Shown piece after piece: positions 55,670-64,000 of a DNA stretch of 64,000 nucleotides. A model generated the notes under the pieces. The model was not told where the DNA came from, made no database searches, and was given only the letters and a program-made list of their open reading frames with translations. Made by a program: the position numbers and the translations under genes. Within the stretch, counting starts at the first letter, position 1. Every line of letters begins with the position of its first letter. Location: assembly GCA_022792335.1 (NCBI GenBank), contig JAAWAV010000003.1, positions 42,752-106,751 on the forward strand. The letters are read 5' to 3'. The stretch is from Lachnospiraceae bacterium (GTDB taxonomy: Bacteria; Bacillota; Clostridia; Lachnospirales; Lachnospiraceae).

Positions 55670-56857
55670 ATGATTGCCGTTTTATTATCTCCTTTATATA
55701 TTCTTGTTACCCTGTATCTTCTCCGCTGGAATCTCTGGTGGTTCTCAGCCTGCGGCTCCTTTTTTCGTAAGAAATGGTTCCGCATCAGTTATTCTGTATT
55801 GTTTCTGTTTATCTCTCTTTCTCTTGTCGTCGCTTTCTTTATCCGGGAGCCTTCCCTGAAATGGTTTTTCAAACATTTAAGTAATTACTGGCTGGGCACT
55901 CTCCTGTATATCACTCTGGCTGTGATCGTCAGCGACCTGGTCCGCGTGATTCTTCTTCACTGCGATCGGGTCAACAAAATCAAGCTTCACTCCAGAAAAA
56001 CCTTTTTAATAAGCGGCGGAATTGTCATCGCAATCATTCTTTCCCTCAGTACCTACGGTATTATCCATGCCAGAAATCTAAAACTTACGCAGTATGACAT
56101 TACCATTGACAAGCCCTGTAAAACGGGCGATCTGAAGATAGTGCTCATCGCAGACCTTCATATGGGTTACAGCATCGACCATAGTTATATTGAACATATG
56201 GTAGAAAAAATCAATGCTCTGGAGCCAGATCTGATCTGCATTGCCGGAGATATTTTTGACAATGATTACGACGCCCTGGACGATCCGGCCGCCATCACTG
56301 CCGCTTTCAAGAGTATGAAGAGTACCTATGGCATTTACGCCTGCTGGGGAAATCACGATATCGATGAAAAGATACTGGCCGGCTTCACCTTCGGTTCCTC
56401 AAAGGAGCTTACGGACGACGCACGTATGGCCAATCTACTAAAAGAAGCCGGAATCACGCTGTTAAACGACGAGATCGTCTGCATAGACGACGCTTTTTAT
56501 CTGGCCGGTCGAAAAGACATTGACCGGGTAAAGAAAATCGAACATACAAGAAAAACGCCCGCAGAGCTGACAGCCGGGCTTGACCTTAAAAAACCGCTCC
56601 TAGTGCTGGAGCATCAGCCAAAACAGCTTGATGAACTGGCAGTGGCCGGCGCGGACGTCCAGCTTTGCGGTCATACCCACAACGGACAGCTCTTTCCCGG
56701 CAATCTGCTCATCAAGCTTTTCTGGGAAAATCCCTACGGCCTGGAAAAACGAGGCTCCATGTATTCCATCGTTACCTCCGGAGTCGGCATCTGGGGTCCG
56801 GATATGCGCATCGGAACTGACAGTGAGATTGTAGAAATTCAAGTCCACTTTCAATGA
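55670..56857 (+). CDS. metallophosphoesterase with N-terminal TMs (YkuE-like)
   Basis: LKIVLIADLHMGYSIDHS, ICIAGDIFDNDYDAL, YACWGNHD, LCGHTHNGQLFPG. Confidence 0.95.
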   Translation: MIAVLLSPLYILVTLYLLRWNLWWFSACGSFFRKKWFRISYSVLFLFISLSLVVAFFIREPSLKWFFKHLSNYWLGTLLYITLAVIVSDLVRVILLHCDRVNKIKLHSRKTFLISGGIVIAIILSLSTYGIIHARNLKLTQYDITIDKPCKTGDLKIVLIADLHMGYSIDHSYIEHMVEKINALEPDLICIAGDIFDNDYDALDDPAAITAAFKSMKSTYGIYACWGNHDIDEKILAGFTFGSSKELTDDARMANLLKEAGITLLNDEIVCIDDAFYLAGRKDIDRVKKIEHTRKTPAELTAGLDLKKPLLVLEHQPKQLDELAVAGADVQLCGHTHNGQLFPGNLLIKLFWENPYGLEKRGSMYSIVTSGVGIWGPDMRIGTDSEIVEIQVHFQ

Positions 56858-56876
56858 ACCCTGTATCTATCGGACT

Positions 56877-57736
56877 CTATAAAACTTGGTAAATTTGGTA
56901 AATTTCTTCAAGAGTTACATTTCTTCCCAGTATGGAACAAATTTCTTGCTCCCTGGAAAGAAAAAGCCTGGAAATCAGTCGCCGTACATCCTCTTTTGTC
57001 CCATAATGGATTTGATTGTGGCAGTTGCTGCAAAGAGAAAAAATATTCTGTTCCCTATCGAGACTGACCCCAAAATAGTCCGTCATTGACATCGGAATTA
57101 AATGATGCGGTTCCATATATAAATGGGACGAATGCTTCCGAAGGAATGAGGTATGTGTTGTGTCTATTTCACAACGATGTCCGGCACGGGTAAGGGCGCG
57201 CTGTGCAACTAAAGGATCCCGCAGGTATGTATTCCTATTACCTGAACGATTCGAGACGCTCCCTTTTGGCATGGGTTTGTCTGAAAGGACTGTCAAAGGT
57301 TCCTCCGGGGCGTTCTCAGCTTGAGATAGCTGCTCTAACAGAATACGATCTGCCGTAAATTCCGGATGGATTTGTGTGTGGAAGAACTTTTGATAGAACA
57401 TAGCAGTAAAATATGTAGTGTCTCCAAAGGAAATGTCCCGAAGCCTCTGGGACAGAGCCTCAACGTATTCTTTGCCTGCCTCTGTAATTTTCCAGAGTTC
57501 ATGTTCACCACTTTGCATATACCCATATGCAACCAGATGCTGGCGCTCATAGGAAAATCATTTCGCCAAGCTTTTTCATTTCTAGTTGTTCGAGAAACAT
57601 CGTTTTGGTCATTTTTATACCAATATCCATTTTCCTGAATGTGTTGTAAAACCGTCTTTCTTTGACTTCCTCCATCCAGCTCAATCAGAGAATAAAGCAG
57701 TACCAGCCATTTTTGTTCTTGTCGATTTATCTGCAC
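56877..57736 (-). pseudogene. Winged-helix (Mrr_N-like) + HNH endonuclease split by a one-base frameshift
   Basis: ORF 57736->57335 starts MQINRQEQKWLVLLYSLIELDGG..NEKAWRND. A different frame continues FSYERQHLVAYGYMQSGEHELWKITEAGKEY...EPHHLIPMSMTDYFGVSLDREQNIFSLCSNCHNQIHYG. Adding one T to the minus-strand T4 (plus AAAA at 57554-57557) joins them. Confidence 0.85.
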
Positions 57737-59775
57737 GGAGAATCACCTTCCTTCCTTTGAAAGCGCAAAATGGGATATGTAATATATTGTCGGATTAGAA
57801 AATACTCAAACTCTTTCAACCGTTTCTTCTGCAGCGTGTCGGAGCATTGTTTTTGATACTGGAAAACCTCAAACAGTGTGTCTCCAAGGTTCTTCTGTGT
57901 TTCCATATCCGGAAAAAAAACCGTGATTTTTGAAAGTTTCCTATTATCAATACTCGCATAGGTTGTGTATACCGTAGAAACATTTTCAATTTCCCACCGG
58001 TAAATCTCGCTTCGAAAATAGCAAGCAGCGTAAAGAGGATTTATGATTTGCTTATCATAAGGGCGCAGCCGTTTTATAAAGCCGCCATAGACTGCGTCCT
58101 GATCCTCCAGTGCGACACAGCAACAGGCCAGTTCTCTGGTTGTTTCGCTTGTCCTGTTTAAAAATACGTCTCCATATTCTATTCCATATTTTCGCTTTTC
58201 ATCCTCCGTCACGTCCACATATGAGGGCCAGCTATCCGGTATATAGGGAGAATGAATGACGGTTTTTACATCCAATATCGGAACTCCTTTGCCAAAGGAG
58301 TCTTTGCTTTTTGTCACTCCTCCAAATACATCATATATCTCAAACAGAGTCGCTTTTTCCCAATGCTTCGCTATCTTTGCATTCTTCCACCGTGCGATAG
58401 AGGATAATAACGGTTCGCTGATTGGCAACGCTGAAAGTTCCTCTATGGTTTCTAACAACTTCCCATATTCTCTGTGAATTTCAGATTCCCCGGGCCGCAA
58501 GACAGCAGTATATCGATTGGGACTTAATATAAAATCGTTTTGCTCAATTTTTTCCAGGGAAGCAACTCCATACCACTCTGTACAGGTATGCAGTTTCCTT
58601 TGTCGGTGTTTGCTTACCAGTTCTGTCAACACTTCGATATGTTCAGATGTAAAATCTTTTTTTATCTCTGGCTTCATATGCGCGGCATTAATAAAAAGTA
58701 TGTCGCCGCTTTTGTTATCGCTGTTTGCAAGTAGCCAAATGCAACACGGAACTTTTGTCGAATAAAATAATCCTGGCGGAAGAGTAATCACTGCTTCAAT
58801 CCGTTTATTCTGTATAATCGCCTGACGAATACCAGCTTCCCCATATGTTTGAGTAGTAAGCGTTCCATTGGGCAAAATTACAGCAGCACGGCCGTTTGGC
58901 TGTAAATGGCTTAGGATATGCTGGAGCCACGCAAAATTGGCATTTGAACGAGGTGGAATGCCAAAATGCCATCTGTCGTCGTAGAAGGGAGGATTGTCGC
59001 CGAACCAGTTTGCATGATTAAATGGCGGATTCGCAATGATATAGTCGAATTTTTTATTTTTATGTTGGTCATCCAACAATGTGCTTGCAGCCGTTTTTCC
59101 TAAATTAACACTTTCCCCGTGTAATATAAGGGTCATTTGCGATAACAGATAAGAATTTTCATCCTGAGTTTGCCCATATAAGTTTAAGTTTTGTTTACTA
59201 CATTTTTGAACTGCCAATAGTAAAGCGCCGCTTCCACAACAAGGGTCATATGCAGTCCCCCGGCCAGGGTTCAGGAATGCCGCCAGACATTGTGCAATGC
59301 TTTTGGGGGTATAAAAATCTCCAGAGGAGGAGGACATATCGTCTGTAGAGGTTTTCCTTTGTAGATGGTTTTCATAAATTGCAGCACATGGCAAATCATC
59401 TATAGAAATATCTGATAACAGATGAATCAACTGTTTCAGAACGCGTTCTTCAACATCTTGCCTTTCATTCTGTGCGATTAATTTATGAACAAAGGGGAAT
59501 ACGGGCTCAATGAAAGTAAGAGATTTCGCAATTGACGACATGTAATTGCCTTCCTGATTGGTTAGAACACTCTCCCATAGAGGATATTCTATTTGTTTTG
59601 CATCGTTGTTGGTTAAGAGTCGGGACAGAGAACCGTCTTGTGATAACTGTCGAAGCAGCAACAGGCTAAAAAGTATACTGTCTTTCATAGAAGTGCAAAG
59701 TTGTTCAATTTCTTTTTGAATGGTACTGCATATAGCTTTCATTGCACGGCTCCTATCATAAAAATCAAGGGACAA
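57727..59775 (-). CDS. HsdM-HsdS fusion: N6-adenine DNA methyltransferase + single specificity (TRD) domain, 682 aa
   Basis: GDFYTPKSIAQCLAAFLNPGRGTAYDPCCGSGALLLAVQ, FDYIIANPPFNHANWFG (NPPF); C-terminal TRD-like GVPILDVKTVIHSPY..DVFLNRTSETTRELACC..IDNRKLSKITVFFPDMETQKNLGDTLFEVFQYQKQC. Confidence 0.9.
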   Translation of the reverse strand: MSLDFYDRSRAMKAICSTIQKEIEQLCTSMKDSILFSLLLLRQLSQDGSLSRLLTNNDAKQIEYPLWESVLTNQEGNYMSSIAKSLTFIEPVFPFVHKLIAQNERQDVEERVLKQLIHLLSDISIDDLPCAAIYENHLQRKTSTDDMSSSSGDFYTPKSIAQCLAAFLNPGRGTAYDPCCGSGALLLAVQKCSKQNLNLYGQTQDENSYLLSQMTLILHGESVNLGKTAASTLLDDQHKNKKFDYIIANPPFNHANWFGDNPPFYDDRWHFGIPPRSNANFAWLQHILSHLQPNGRAAVILPNGTLTTQTYGEAGIRQAIIQNKRIEAVITLPPGLFYSTKVPCCIWLLANSDNKSGDILFINAAHMKPEIKKDFTSEHIEVLTELVSKHRQRKLHTCTEWYGVASLEKIEQNDFILSPNRYTAVLRPGESEIHREYGKLLETIEELSALPISEPLLSSIARWKNAKIAKHWEKATLFEIYDVFGGVTKSKDSFGKGVPILDVKTVIHSPYIPDSWPSYVDVTEDEKRKYGIEYGDVFLNRTSETTRELACCCVALEDQDAVYGGFIKRLRPYDKQIINPLYAACYFRSEIYRWEIENVSTVYTTYASIDNRKLSKITVFFPDMETQKNLGDTLFEVFQYQKQCSDTLQKKRLKEFEYFLIRQYITYPILRFQRKEGDSPCR

Positions 59776-59874
59776 TCCAGTATCTGCTATCCATAATTAT
59801 ACATGGAATATCGTATTTCTTCAATTCTTATGGAAATATAATACATTCAGAAACTTTCTTCCTGTTTTATAGCG

Positions 59875-60162
59875 TTATTGTCTCTCCTTTATAGCCTTAA
59901 TCAGATTTAAAATGGCCGTCTTTTCTGCTTCTGTCAGGCCCGAAAAATCTACCTCCTGTTTCTGTTCTATGCCCAAAAGGAAATCCGTTGTCACCTTAAA
60001 TATTCTGGCTATTGCAATCAAAACATCATAAGAAGGCATTCTCAATCCCGTCTCATATGCACTAATCACAGACTTTGTCAATCCCAATCTCTGTGATAAC
60101 TGTTCCTGCGTCATATCGTTTTTCCTTCTTAACCTCTTCAACGTGTTTCCAAAATCAACCAT
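59875..60162 (-). CDS. XRE-family HTH regulator (possible R-M controller)
   Basis: LKRLRRKNDMTQEQLSQRLGLTKSVISAYETGLRMPSYDVLIAIARIFKVTTDFLLG. Confidence 0.93.
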   Translation of the reverse strand: MVDFGNTLKRLRRKNDMTQEQLSQRLGLTKSVISAYETGLRMPSYDVLIAIARIFKVTTDFLLGIEQKQEVDFSGLTEAEKTAILNLIKAIKERQ

Positions 60163-60406
60163 CTCAAAACCTCCTTTTCCCTAGTTTAATGTACTATGGT
60201 CACACTATGGGTTGATTTATTCTTTGATTAGTTGACTTTGTTTTGATTTAGAGATATTATGTTACTAAATAAACTTTTATTCTCATACAGGAAGGAGGGA
60301 GGGACATGGGATAAAATACATACAAAGGGGTTCCACCTATATGGGGTGAAACCTTCCATTCTGATTCTTTGTAAAGCTAAAACGATTGAAAACAAGGAGA
60401 ATAAGT

Positions 60407-62722
60407 ATGAAAAAAATGAAACACACATGGAAACGGTTATGTGCTATCAGCCTTTCGTCGGCATTGTTAGTATCTGTCATGCCCACACTTTATCTTCCCA
60501 TAGGGGATGTGTTTGCGGCGGAAGAGACAGAAACCAGTGGAACAGAAGTTGTCCCCTCTACGGAAGAAACACAAACGGATTCCGGAACAAAAGAAGAGGC
60601 ACAGACCAATGAGGCGGCGTCAGTGGAAGAAGCCGCTTCTATACTAAATGAAACAGAAACAATCTCTCCCACAGAAGAAACACAAATGGATTCCGTAGCA
60701 AAGGAAGAGGAGCAGACCAGTGAGGCGGCAGCAACGGAAGTATCTACTTCTTTCCCGGAAGAAACAGAAGTGGAAGTATCTGTAGAAGAGTATGCCGCCG
60801 CGCCTAAAGCAGGAGATGTCGCGATTGATTCCACCAATTTCCCGGATGAAAATTTCAGGAAGTATGTGCAGAATAGAATTGACAAAAATAAAGACAATGT
60901 TTTGTCGCAGGCAGAAATTGATAGTTGCGCAAATATATTCGTATCCTTTTTAGAAATAAAAAGTTTGAAAGGAATTGAACTTTTTACTGCCCTGACATCT
61001 TTAGATTGCTACGGTAACAATCTGACCACTCTGGATTTAAGCAAAAATACTGCCTTGACAGTCTTGATTTGCGGTAACAATAATCTGACCACTCTGGATG
61101 TAAGCAAAAGTACTGCCTTGACAGATTTACAGTGCTACCGCAATAACCTGACCACTCTGGACGTAAGCAAAAATACTGCCTTGACAGTCTTGAGTTGCGG
61201 TAACAATAATCTGACCACTTTGGACGTAAGCAAAAATACTGCCTTGACAGATTTACGGTGCTACCGCAATAACCTGACCACTCTGGATGTAAGCAAAAAT
61301 ACTGCCTTGACATCCTTGGATTGCAGTAACAATAATCTGACCACTTTGGACGTAAGCAAAAATACTGCCTTGACATCCTTAGATTGCAGTAACAATAATC
61401 TGACCAGTCTGGACTTAAGTAAAAATAAAAACTTCATAGTTTGGGGTGCCTTTGTTTACTCGGGTAATAGCAAGGCCACTCTGAACCTGAACAAAAATAT
61501 ATTTGATTTATCTACACTTCCGAATTTTGATGTATCCAGAGTAACCTCTGTTGAAGGTGGAAGCATTTCAGGGAATATTTTAACAGTAAATCCAGGAGTA
61601 TCACGTGTAAATTATATATACGACAGTAAATCTCCATCACTGCCAAATGCGGATGTATCGTTCAGCCTCCATTTTGATAAACCTGCTACTGAACCCGACG
61701 ATTCACAGACAACGCCTGAAATCCCGGCATCAGGAACCGGCATTTCCTACCAGACCCATGTACAAACCTACGGCTGGCAGAATCCCGTTTCTAATGGCAA
61801 AGTAGCGGGAACCAGCGGACAGGCGAAGCGTTTAGAGGGAATCAAGGTTTCCGTATCCGGCAATCCGAATCTTGGCGTACAGTACACAGCTCACGTCCAG
61901 TCTTATGGCTGGCTCCCGTGGGTGGGAAATGGAGAATTTTCTGGAACAGAGGGAGAGGGCAAACGTCTGGAAGCAATCAAGATTCAGCTGACAGGAGCAG
62001 ACAAAGATAACTATGATATTTATTACCGTGTCCATGCTCAGTCCTATGGATGGCTGAACTGGGCGAAGAATGGGGAAGCGGCTGGAACCGCCGGTTTATC
62101 CAAGCGGCTGGAAGCGATTCAGATTCAGATCGTAGAGAAAGGAAAGGCAGCCAATACAAAAGCAGAAGGGATTTCTTCTGTCAGAAATGAAGCGTATATT
62201 ACAAACTCAGGAAATGCACCTGTCGTCGGCGGAGCGGACGCACCAAACGTTTTCTATAAAACCCACATACAGACTTACGGCTGGCAGGGGTTAAAGTACA
62301 ACGGACAGATGTCTGGAACCAGCGGACAGGCGAAACGGCTGGAAGGTATTTGTATCAATTTAAGCAACCTTCCTTATTCCGGCGGCATTACCTATCAGAC
62401 CCATGTACAAACTTACGGCTGGCAGGGATGGAAATCTAACGGAACGATGTCTGGAACCAGCGGACAGGCGAAGCGGTTAGAGGCAATCGAAATCAAGCTG
62501 ACCGGAGAAATAGAAAAGCATTATGATGTATATTACCGTGTCCATGCTCAAACCTATGGCTGGATGGGATGGGCAAAGAACGGAGCTTCCGCCGGAACTG
62601 CTGGTTTATCGAAACGGCTGGAAGGGATTCAGATCGTACTTGTACCGAAGGGAAATGCAGCGCCGGCAAATAATTATGGCGGTATCGTTTCTGTAAATGA
62701 ATCGGCATTTGTCCAGAAATAA
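60407..62722 (+). CDS. secreted LRR + ChW-repeat surface protein
   Basis: Signal peptide RLCAISLSSALLVSVMPTLYLPIGDVFAAEE; T/E-rich spacer; EF-hand/dockerin-like DKNKDNVLSQAEID; LRR-like CxNNLTTLDVSKNTALTxL repeats; six ChW-like YxxHVQTYGWxxWxxNGxxxGTxGxxKRLExIxI units. Confidence 0.92.
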   Translation: MKKMKHTWKRLCAISLSSALLVSVMPTLYLPIGDVFAAEETETSGTEVVPSTEETQTDSGTKEEAQTNEAASVEEAASILNETETISPTEETQMDSVAKEEEQTSEAAATEVSTSFPEETEVEVSVEEYAAAPKAGDVAIDSTNFPDENFRKYVQNRIDKNKDNVLSQAEIDSCANIFVSFLEIKSLKGIELFTALTSLDCYGNNLTTLDLSKNTALTVLICGNNNLTTLDVSKSTALTDLQCYRNNLTTLDVSKNTALTVLSCGNNNLTTLDVSKNTALTDLRCYRNNLTTLDVSKNTALTSLDCSNNNLTTLDVSKNTALTSLDCSNNNLTSLDLSKNKNFIVWGAFVYSGNSKATLNLNKNIFDLSTLPNFDVSRVTSVEGGSISGNILTVNPGVSRVNYIYDSKSPSLPNADVSFSLHFDKPATEPDDSQTTPEIPASGTGISYQTHVQTYGWQNPVSNGKVAGTSGQAKRLEGIKVSVSGNPNLGVQYTAHVQSYGWLPWVGNGEFSGTEGEGKRLEAIKIQLTGADKDNYDIYYRVHAQSYGWLNWAKNGEAAGTAGLSKRLEAIQIQIVEKGKAANTKAEGISSVRNEAYITNSGNAPVVGGADAPNVFYKTHIQTYGWQGLKYNGQMSGTSGQAKRLEGICINLSNLPYSGGITYQTHVQTYGWQGWKSNGTMSGTSGQAKRLEAIEIKLTGEIEKHYDVYYRVHAQTYGWMGWAKNGASAGTAGLSKRLEGIQIVLVPKGNAAPANNYGGIVSVNESAFVQK
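61007..61447 (+). repeat. seven tandem 63-bp LRR-encoding repeat units
   Basis: Units start at 61007, 61070, 61133, 61196, 61259, 61322 and 61385; each encodes 21 aa. Confidence 0.93.
61741..62650 (+). repeat. six ChW-type repeats
   Basis: YQTHVQTYGWQNPVSNGKVAGTSGQAKRLEGIKV and five further variants in the translation. Confidence 0.9.
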
Positions 62723-62783
62723 TTTTGTAAAAGCCTAGCTTTATTGAAAGAATACTCTAAAAATCTTATAAAAGGATTCTCTT

Positions 62784-62990
62784 ATGCCAAATAATAGGAT
62801 TCCATTTGTATCATTTATGCACAGCAATGAAACTTATACGCTTACTTATCTCAAAAATTTAGCGATGCAAAATCTGACAGACATTAAAGAAACAGCAGAA
62901 TCCGAATTAATTATCCAATGTGGTGAAAATCAGGATGGAGAACCTTTATACAGATTAACAAATAAAGGGATTCAATACCGAAACAATTAA
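62784..62990 (+). CDS. small hypothetical protein, 68 aa
   Basis: AAAAGGA Shine-Dalgarno-like site upstream of ATG; intact ORF. Confidence 0.5.
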   Translation: MPNNRIPFVSFMHSNETYTLTYLKNLAMQNLTDIKETAESELIIQCGENQDGEPLYRLTNKGIQYRNN

Positions 62991-63014
62991 TTGTAACAAA
63001 GTGACAGCAGGACA

Positions 63015-63479
63015 TCAACTTCCTGCTGCCGCTTTCAATTCTGCCTTATACTTATAATAGGAATTTCTGGAAATCCCCGCTATCTTAATCACTTCTGAGT
63101 CGGTATTCGTACCATTAAAATCCTTGCTGTTCTTCAAGATGATTTCTTTTGCGGCAATCTCTTTCTTTGTCACATACTTGTTACCTTTGATTCTGCCGAT
63201 CTGCTTCCCGTTCAGCTTAGCGGTTTTGATTCCCTCACAAGTCCTCTGATGTAAGTCTGAGACCTCTTTTTCTGCCTGTTCAAAGGCTATCCGTATCTGT
63301 TCTTTTGCAAGTGACAACAAATATTTGTTGATTCCTTCAAGAATGAAATCTACATTCGTGCCCGTCATTTGTACATTGCTTTCCAAAGCTTTTTTGTAAG
63401 TGTCTGTATTAATGTGCTGCTCCTTAAGAAACACAAGGCTAATTCCAAGATGAAAGCCGCCATTTCCCACATTACCCAA
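63015..63479 (-). pseudogene. truncated serine recombinase/resolvase (C-terminal fragment)
   Basis: GISLVFLKEQHINTDTYKKALESN...IRIAFEQAEKEVSDLHQRTCEGIKTAKLNGKQIGRIKGNKYVTKKEIAAKEII..IAGISRNSYYKYKAEL; the N-terminal catalytic Ser region is missing. Confidence 0.75.
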
Positions 63480-63537
63480 AACAAAGAGTGCGTTTCCTTA
63501 TTTGAAAAGTACATCGAAGTGTATAAAGGAGCTTCAC

Positions 63538-63759
63538 ATGCAAGGAATAAAGATTGACTTTAATGACAAATATAATTATTCTCTAACTCAATTAGATACA
63601 GAAAGTCTTGTCATGAGTCAATATTGGTCTCTCGCTCCTTTAAAATCTCAAGAAGTATATTTCCTTCAATCAGTGCCTGATGAAGTTGTATCTCTACCTT
63701 TTGTGATTGAGTTTACTATCGGTGATAGCGAAACAATATATAGATATATACAAAAATAA
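63538..63759 (+). CDS. small hypothetical protein, 73 aa
   Basis: AAAGGAG RBS then ATG at 63538: MQGIKIDFNDKYNYSLTQLDTESLVMSQYWSLAPLKSQEVYFL. Confidence 0.55.
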   Translation: MQGIKIDFNDKYNYSLTQLDTESLVMSQYWSLAPLKSQEVYFLQSVPDEVVSLPFVIEFTIGDSETIYRYIQK

Positions 63760-63912
63760 TTCATCTAACAGCAGCAGGACATCAAATCCTGCTGCTATTT
63801 TTAATTCTACCTTATACTTATAATTTAGAAGAATAAAATATAAAAATAGCAGATAGTATGTTATAATTTATGTGTTGCTCACCGACACCCGCAACAGGGA
63901 GGAGGTGTCTGC

Positions 63913-64000
63913 ATGGAAGTTGTGATTTCTTTTTTAGTCGCTGTTTTGGCTGGTGTAGCCTGCCACTACATCATCAAATGGTTAGACAGTGACGACAAGA
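63913..64000 (+). CDS. partial small hydrophobic membrane peptide, runs off the window end
   Basis: GGGAGGAGG RBS, then MEVVISFLVAVLAGVACHYIIKWLDSDDK... Confidence 0.65.
   Translation, partial: MEVVISFLVAVLAGVACHYIIKWLDSDDK

Follow-up and report, generated by a model that had tools for sequence, protein, structure and literature searches.

A probable Type II-like restriction-modification cassette in apparent decay pairs a fused M-S methyltransferase with a winged-helix HNH nuclease in a Lachnospiraceae genome

The window analysed here is a 64,000-nucleotide stretch of contig JAAWAV010000003.1 from a Lachnospiraceae gut bacterium. A gene for a methyltransferase fused to a specificity domain (M~S, here M-S) lies on the minus strand at 57727..59742, and its 3' end overlaps a nuclease gene at 56877..57736 on the same strand. 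A small gene for an XRE-type regulator lies further upstream, at 59875..60162. An earlier note on this DNA had described the three as one compact restriction-modification (R-M) operon. The overlapping M-S and nuclease pair was recovered in our analysis, whereas the XRE gene was judged unrelated, having homologues that occur without the cassette, and the nuclease gene was found to be frameshifted.

The longest M-S open reading frame covers 57727-59775 on the minus strand and encodes 682 aa when counted from TTG 59775. From the sequence, the ATG at 59742, which lies behind an AGGAG, is the likelier start, and it would give a protein of 671 aa, coding from 59742 to 57730 with the stop codon at 57727-57729. 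Pfam searches showed an N6_Mtase match (E = 2e-73) and one Methylase_S stretch (E = 3e-5, residues 471-639 of the 682-aa ORF), in line with the earlier description of a methyltransferase fused to a single specificity domain. The catalytic motifs DPCCGSG (residue 166) and NPPF (residue 238) were in gamma-class order. After the methylase, at about residues 120-415, come a single Type I-like target-recognition domain (TRD) and a predicted C-terminal helix pair. The closest solved structures by sequence were HsdM subunits (3khk, E = 6e-50), and the PDB fold matches of the M-S model were HsdM subunits as well (3khk and 7vru). The best PADLOC match was a profile for Type I methyltransferases, 932 positions long, which covers both the M and the S parts (residues 132-664, E = 3e-101). 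In the AlphaFold2 model the methylase was good and the TRD was poor, with pLDDT below 50; helices were predicted at 613-632 and 636-654, and the dimer helix was poorly modelled. Judged by these matches, M-S is a predicted N6-adenine methyltransferase fused to one TRD. Separately, the first TRD of an HsdS encoded at another locus (L050:2894-4306) was 39% identical to the TRD of the window M-S over 195 residues; should the motif of that HsdS ever become known, it would predict a half-site of the window system.

The nuclease gene starts at GTG 57736, with a good ribosome-binding site ahead, and its first 10 bp (57727-57736) are shared with the end of M-S, exactly as had been noted before. The gene is broken by one frameshift near 57.55 kb and is read in two overlapping frames, a 5' frame at 57335-57736 and a 3' frame at 56877-57518. 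The part of the 5' frame that is still in register (57560..57736, minus strand) encodes the N-terminal region of a winged helix and is 86% identical to an intact homologue found at a related locus, L020. The 3' frame, also on the minus strand, encodes the end of the winged helix, a linker, and a complete HNH domain (EPHH...NIFSLCSNCHNQIH). The earlier call of a winged-helix/HNH protein held up: the intact homologue, which carries its HNH domain at the C terminus, scored 31.4 bits against Mrr_N (Pfam cut-off 29.5), and the 3' frame of the window scored 23.3 bits against HNH (cut-off 21.4). The HNH domain matched EcoKMcrA (6ghc) in sequence (E = 6e-8), and the model of the intact nuclease matched it in fold (E = 2e-4); the HNH half of this model was confident and the N-terminal half was not. 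The intact nuclease is a small protein that lacks a TRD. Its predicted modules are typical of modification-dependent (Type IV) enzymes, which makes it unusual as the partner of M-S. The same HNH module was also found in another genome of the family, in an HTH_3 + MrcB_N + HNH protein (L074:1495-2835) that is a candidate Type IV-like enzyme.

Close relatives of the cassette were searched for in one scan of 84,980 genomes, and two loci were found. At L020 (Clostridiaceae bacterium strain 9), an intact nuclease of 286 aa (L020:288-1148) follows M-S with the same 10-bp overlap. The last ~76 codons of this M-S remain, and they abut 75 bases that recur at no fewer than 7 other sites of the genome with 91-100% identity and that end several contigs. 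As this repeat is multi-copy, we concluded that a multi-copy element interrupts M-S at L020. At L019 (Dorea sp. 5-2), fragments of M-S are followed by the C-terminal half of the nuclease, joined by an internal deletion. The order of M-S followed by the winged-helix HNH nuclease was therefore the same at all three known loci, a thin sample for the co-occurrence of the two genes. The pairing of an M-S fusion with an HNH nuclease, which the earlier note had proposed as a system without HsdR, is supported by the recurrence of this order at two further loci. Regarding the conservation of the three-gene order, which that note had offered as a check, the step from M-S to nuclease was kept at both of these loci, and at L019 the gene immediately ahead of M-S was not an XRE gene. 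The best reading of the three sequences is that the cassette is decaying at each of them.

Between the loci, dN/dS was lowest in the winged helix (0.06), lay at 0.13-0.15 in the HNH part and at 0.15 in the methylase, and reached 0.24 in the S tail. These values show purifying selection on both genes and indicate that selection acted on each protein before the decay set in. When the intact nuclease was compared with further genomes of the family and the phylum, the HNH half alone was matched, except by a stand-alone winged-helix protein with a different HNH (L071), suggesting that the exact architecture is rare in the sampled genomes. No close relatives of M-S were found in viral contigs. The matches in phages and plasmids were mostly separate HsdM and HsdS proteins, together with Streptomyces M-S fusions that were 23% identical and had no nuclease. 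Other M-S fusions in Bacillota were paired with HsdR (L115) or preceded a complete Type I system (L117). Text searches of the literature did not find the exact architecture, and an identical REBASE entry may exist.

The frameshift in the window probably inactivates the nuclease and would leave the cassette as a methyltransferase-only remnant in this genome. Because the nuclease frame is broken, the system is likely not restriction-competent here. The title and reasoning of the earlier note implied a working trio, which does not fit a nuclease divided over two overlapping frames, although its mention of a "repaired nuclease" acknowledged the break. Alternatively, sequencing or assembly could have introduced the frameshift by error, and the system could be fully active in this strain, which would agree with the mechanism that we favour and contradict decay at this locus. 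In favour of an error, the difference is of a single base and falls at a short run of T, the genome is a draft in 61 contigs, and the halves encoded by the two frames both look well conserved (dN/dS 0.06 and 0.15). However, the other two loci are damaged as well, which makes decay the common state, and we consider an error possible but doubtful.

The XRE/Cro-CI-type gene (59875..60162, minus strand) encodes 95 aa and precedes the longest M-S ORF by ~100 bp, a spacing already given correctly in the earlier note. There the protein had been taken for a controller, and we weighed a C-protein-controlled Type II system in which it delays expression of the nuclease. The shared strand, the short distance, and a weak match (E = 3e-8) to the control proteins of PADLOC are in favour of such a role. 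However, RstR and capH were the better matches, and the homologues do not keep company with the cassette: one that is 96% identical in a same-genus genome (G010) lies beside transporter genes with neither M-S nor nuclease, two more (71% and 66%) also lack M-S and nuclease, and at L019 M-S is not directly preceded by an XRE gene. A promoter-like site, TTGAAG-17-TATAAT, lies between XRE and the M-S start (59796..59824, minus strand); it is known only as a consensus match, at 10 of 12 positions, and promoter-like matches in the region barely exceed the shuffle expectation. No clear C-box-like repeat was found. On these sequence comparisons the XRE gene was judged to be an unrelated neighbour outside the system. 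Its acting as the controller is very improbable, and the class of C-protein-controlled R-M systems was rejected for want of a dedicated controller.

The cassette lies in a species-variable stretch of ~7 kb (56858..63833), which is bordered by a conserved gene for a phosphoesterase on one side and by a short conserved element on the other. The phosphoesterase gene, which ends at 56857, is kept in the same-genus relatives compared. In one locus of the same genus (L155), the next conserved sequence, corresponding to the window from 63833 on, follows ~80 bases after the phosphoesterase gene, compared with 7 kb in the window. The cassette has a G+C content of 0.41-0.42, lower than the 0.47 of the window. 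The variable site and the lower G+C fit acquisition of the cassette by horizontal transfer. Neither Rfam nor tRNA searches gave a match in the surroundings of the cassette. The same variable stretch carries, on the opposite strand to the cassette, a gene for a large secreted surface-type protein of 778 aa (60386-62722, plus strand) with LRR_4 repeats and six ChW (clostridial hydrophobic W) repeats. An ORF at 63015-63479 (minus strand) resembles by eye the C-terminal part of a serine recombinase and has no Pfam match; it is possibly a remnant of the element that carried the region in. A 170-bp element at 63829-64000 is 96% identical in same-genus genomes, compared with only 76-77% for the neighbouring gene there. 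This element has no Rfam match, and in L154 it encodes a short hydrophobic peptide that is type I toxin-like by eye.

We then considered the class of the system. No HSDR_N domain was found in the whole 2.67-Mb genome, which is 88% complete, by a family search that was positive in 9 of 14 control genomes. A Type I R-M system, which requires an ATP-dependent HsdR, was rejected on this basis. In Type IIG enzymes a single polypeptide holds both nuclease and methylase. Here the two are encoded by separate genes, and Pfam found no nuclease domain in the M-S chain, so the label "type IIG-like" given in the earlier note is wrong in the strict sense. That note was right that HsdR is missing, and this extends to the genome searched, but the absence is no puzzle because a single-TRD M-S is a published Type II design. 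Most Type II systems with bipartite or interrupted palindromic sites use single-TRD M-S gamma-methyltransferases (M.XmnI, M.DrdI, M.XcmI), which are thought to be homodimers pairing via their C-terminal helices (PMC3874165). The half-S proteins of EcoR124I and of M.AhdI form dimers that recognise symmetrical sites (PMC2877798), dimerisation and methylation are both seen with an engineered HsdM-half-HsdS fusion (PMC6158711), and HNH is the second most common class of Type II restriction enzymes (PMC4081073). In the window, gamma methylase motifs I and IV (NPPY/F/W) precede a C-terminal specificity domain within one chain, and a separate restriction gene, its frame broken here, adjoins M-S.

Compared with the homodimeric gamma M-S systems of Type II (PMC3874165), the cassette is alike in its methylase with a single C-terminal TRD and a predicted terminal helix, its separate restriction gene, and its lack of HsdR. 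It is unlike them in the partner, a winged-helix + McrA-type HNH protein whose gene is broken here. AhdI, described as "Type 1 1/2" or Type IIH (PMC4081073, PMC2877798), shares a Type I-like methyltransferase, one TRD per S, and an unrelated restriction enzyme, whereas its M and S are separate and its nuclease belongs to a different family. The Type I fusion at L115, where a 728-aa M-S precedes an HsdR-like ORF of 1082 aa, is likewise an HsdM-HsdS fusion, but with a translocating R subunit that the window lacks. EcoKMcrA (6ghc) has the C-terminal HNH domain in common with the nuclease; its N-terminal domain is unrelated, and it has no methyltransferase partner.

We consider the cassette, with a probability of about 60%, to be a small, horizontally acquired, decaying R-M system of Type II-like organisation with a separate HNH restriction enzyme. 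M-S would dimerise in the manner of the published homodimeric M-S proteins, and the dimer would place m6A in a target shaped as an interrupted palindrome. The nuclease would be the separate cognate restriction enzyme, cutting the same site when it is unmethylated; its winged helix would bind DNA and its EcoKMcrA-type HNH would cut, without a motor for translocation. Here the frameshift would abolish the nuclease, and marking of the DNA probably remains. Besides the thin sample of three loci and the poor models of TRD and dimer helix, two observations speak against the Type II reading. The HNH domain resembles that of EcoKMcrA, and its module appears also in the MrcB_N-HNH protein of L074. In addition, the intact nuclease of L020 lies beside a cut M-S, where a free Type II enzyme should do harm unless it is silent or depends on M-S. 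This second observation keeps two other explanations alive.

In the first of these, the nuclease would be a Type IV-like, modification-dependent enzyme that reads 6mA or 5mC and ignores the mark of the adjacent methyltransferase. Published N6-methyladenine-dependent restriction enzymes include winged-helix HNH proteins of 224-283 aa, some of which have an Eco57I-like methyltransferase as neighbour (PMC11037411). SruGXI, and HhiV4I with its added PUA domain, carry winged helix and HNH in one chain (PMC11037411), as does the nuclease here, by Mrr_N in the intact homologue and HNH in the window ORF. At 286 aa, the intact homologue is also of similar length. The closeness of the HNH to EcoKMcrA, the link of its module to MrcB_N in L074, and an intact nuclease without intact M-S at L020, as expected of a stand-alone enzyme, are consistent with this explanation. 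On the other hand, Type IV enzymes of this kind usually stand alone, 87% of the published winged-helix fusions having no methyltransferase within three genes (PMC11037411), whereas the window nuclease overlaps the methyltransferase gene and M-S lies directly upstream at all three loci. The winged helix, moreover, matches Mrr_N. We regard this explanation as rather unlikely.

In the second, the M-S dimer would find the site and recruit a winged-helix HNH protein without specificity of its own, the HNH taking the place of HsdR in a motor-less complex derived from Type I. The overlapping frames suggest co-expression, the nuclease is small and lacks a TRD, and an intact nuclease beside an interrupted M-S, as in L020, is most easily tolerated if it depends on M-S. 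However, the winged helix may bind specific DNA alone, and the L020 nuclease may be merely unexpressed through a polar effect of the insertion. This arrangement is unlikely. Its particular form in which a half-S M-S dimer both methylates and recruits, with the HsdR replacement built from Type IV parts, is compatible with the state of L020 and is less probable again.

Under the preferred Type II reading, the kind of cassette is essentially known, and the mixed ancestry of its nuclease is the unusual point. A restriction enzyme made of Type IV-style parts could show nucleases shifting between cutting methylated and unmethylated DNA. The three loci, each of which has lost a different part, offer a clean example of R-M decay. 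The cassette is otherwise ordinary, and the earlier note over-read its oddity.

Several other proteins related to parts of the cassette were observed. A 632-aa M-S-like methylase gene lies upstream of a Type I hsdM-hsdS pair in two unrelated genomes (L117:3980-9073 and L162:2265-10585); in L162 an hsdR is annotated as well. Elsewhere in the same bacterial family, an HNH protein (L066:826-3516) lies directly before an ORF that by eye is an Eco57I-like methyltransferase. HNH proteins of Klebsiella and Enterobacter plasmids have only the C-terminal part of the nuclease in common, and no methyltransferase was adjacent at the three loci read (L027:5650-6558, L028:5665-6573, L029:5650-6558). There the HNH module belongs to a stand-alone protein, whose N-terminal part has no Pfam match, and the gene adjoins sil metal-resistance or DUF305 genes. 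This type of protein matched ~1,390 plasmid records, mostly from Klebsiella and Enterobacter.
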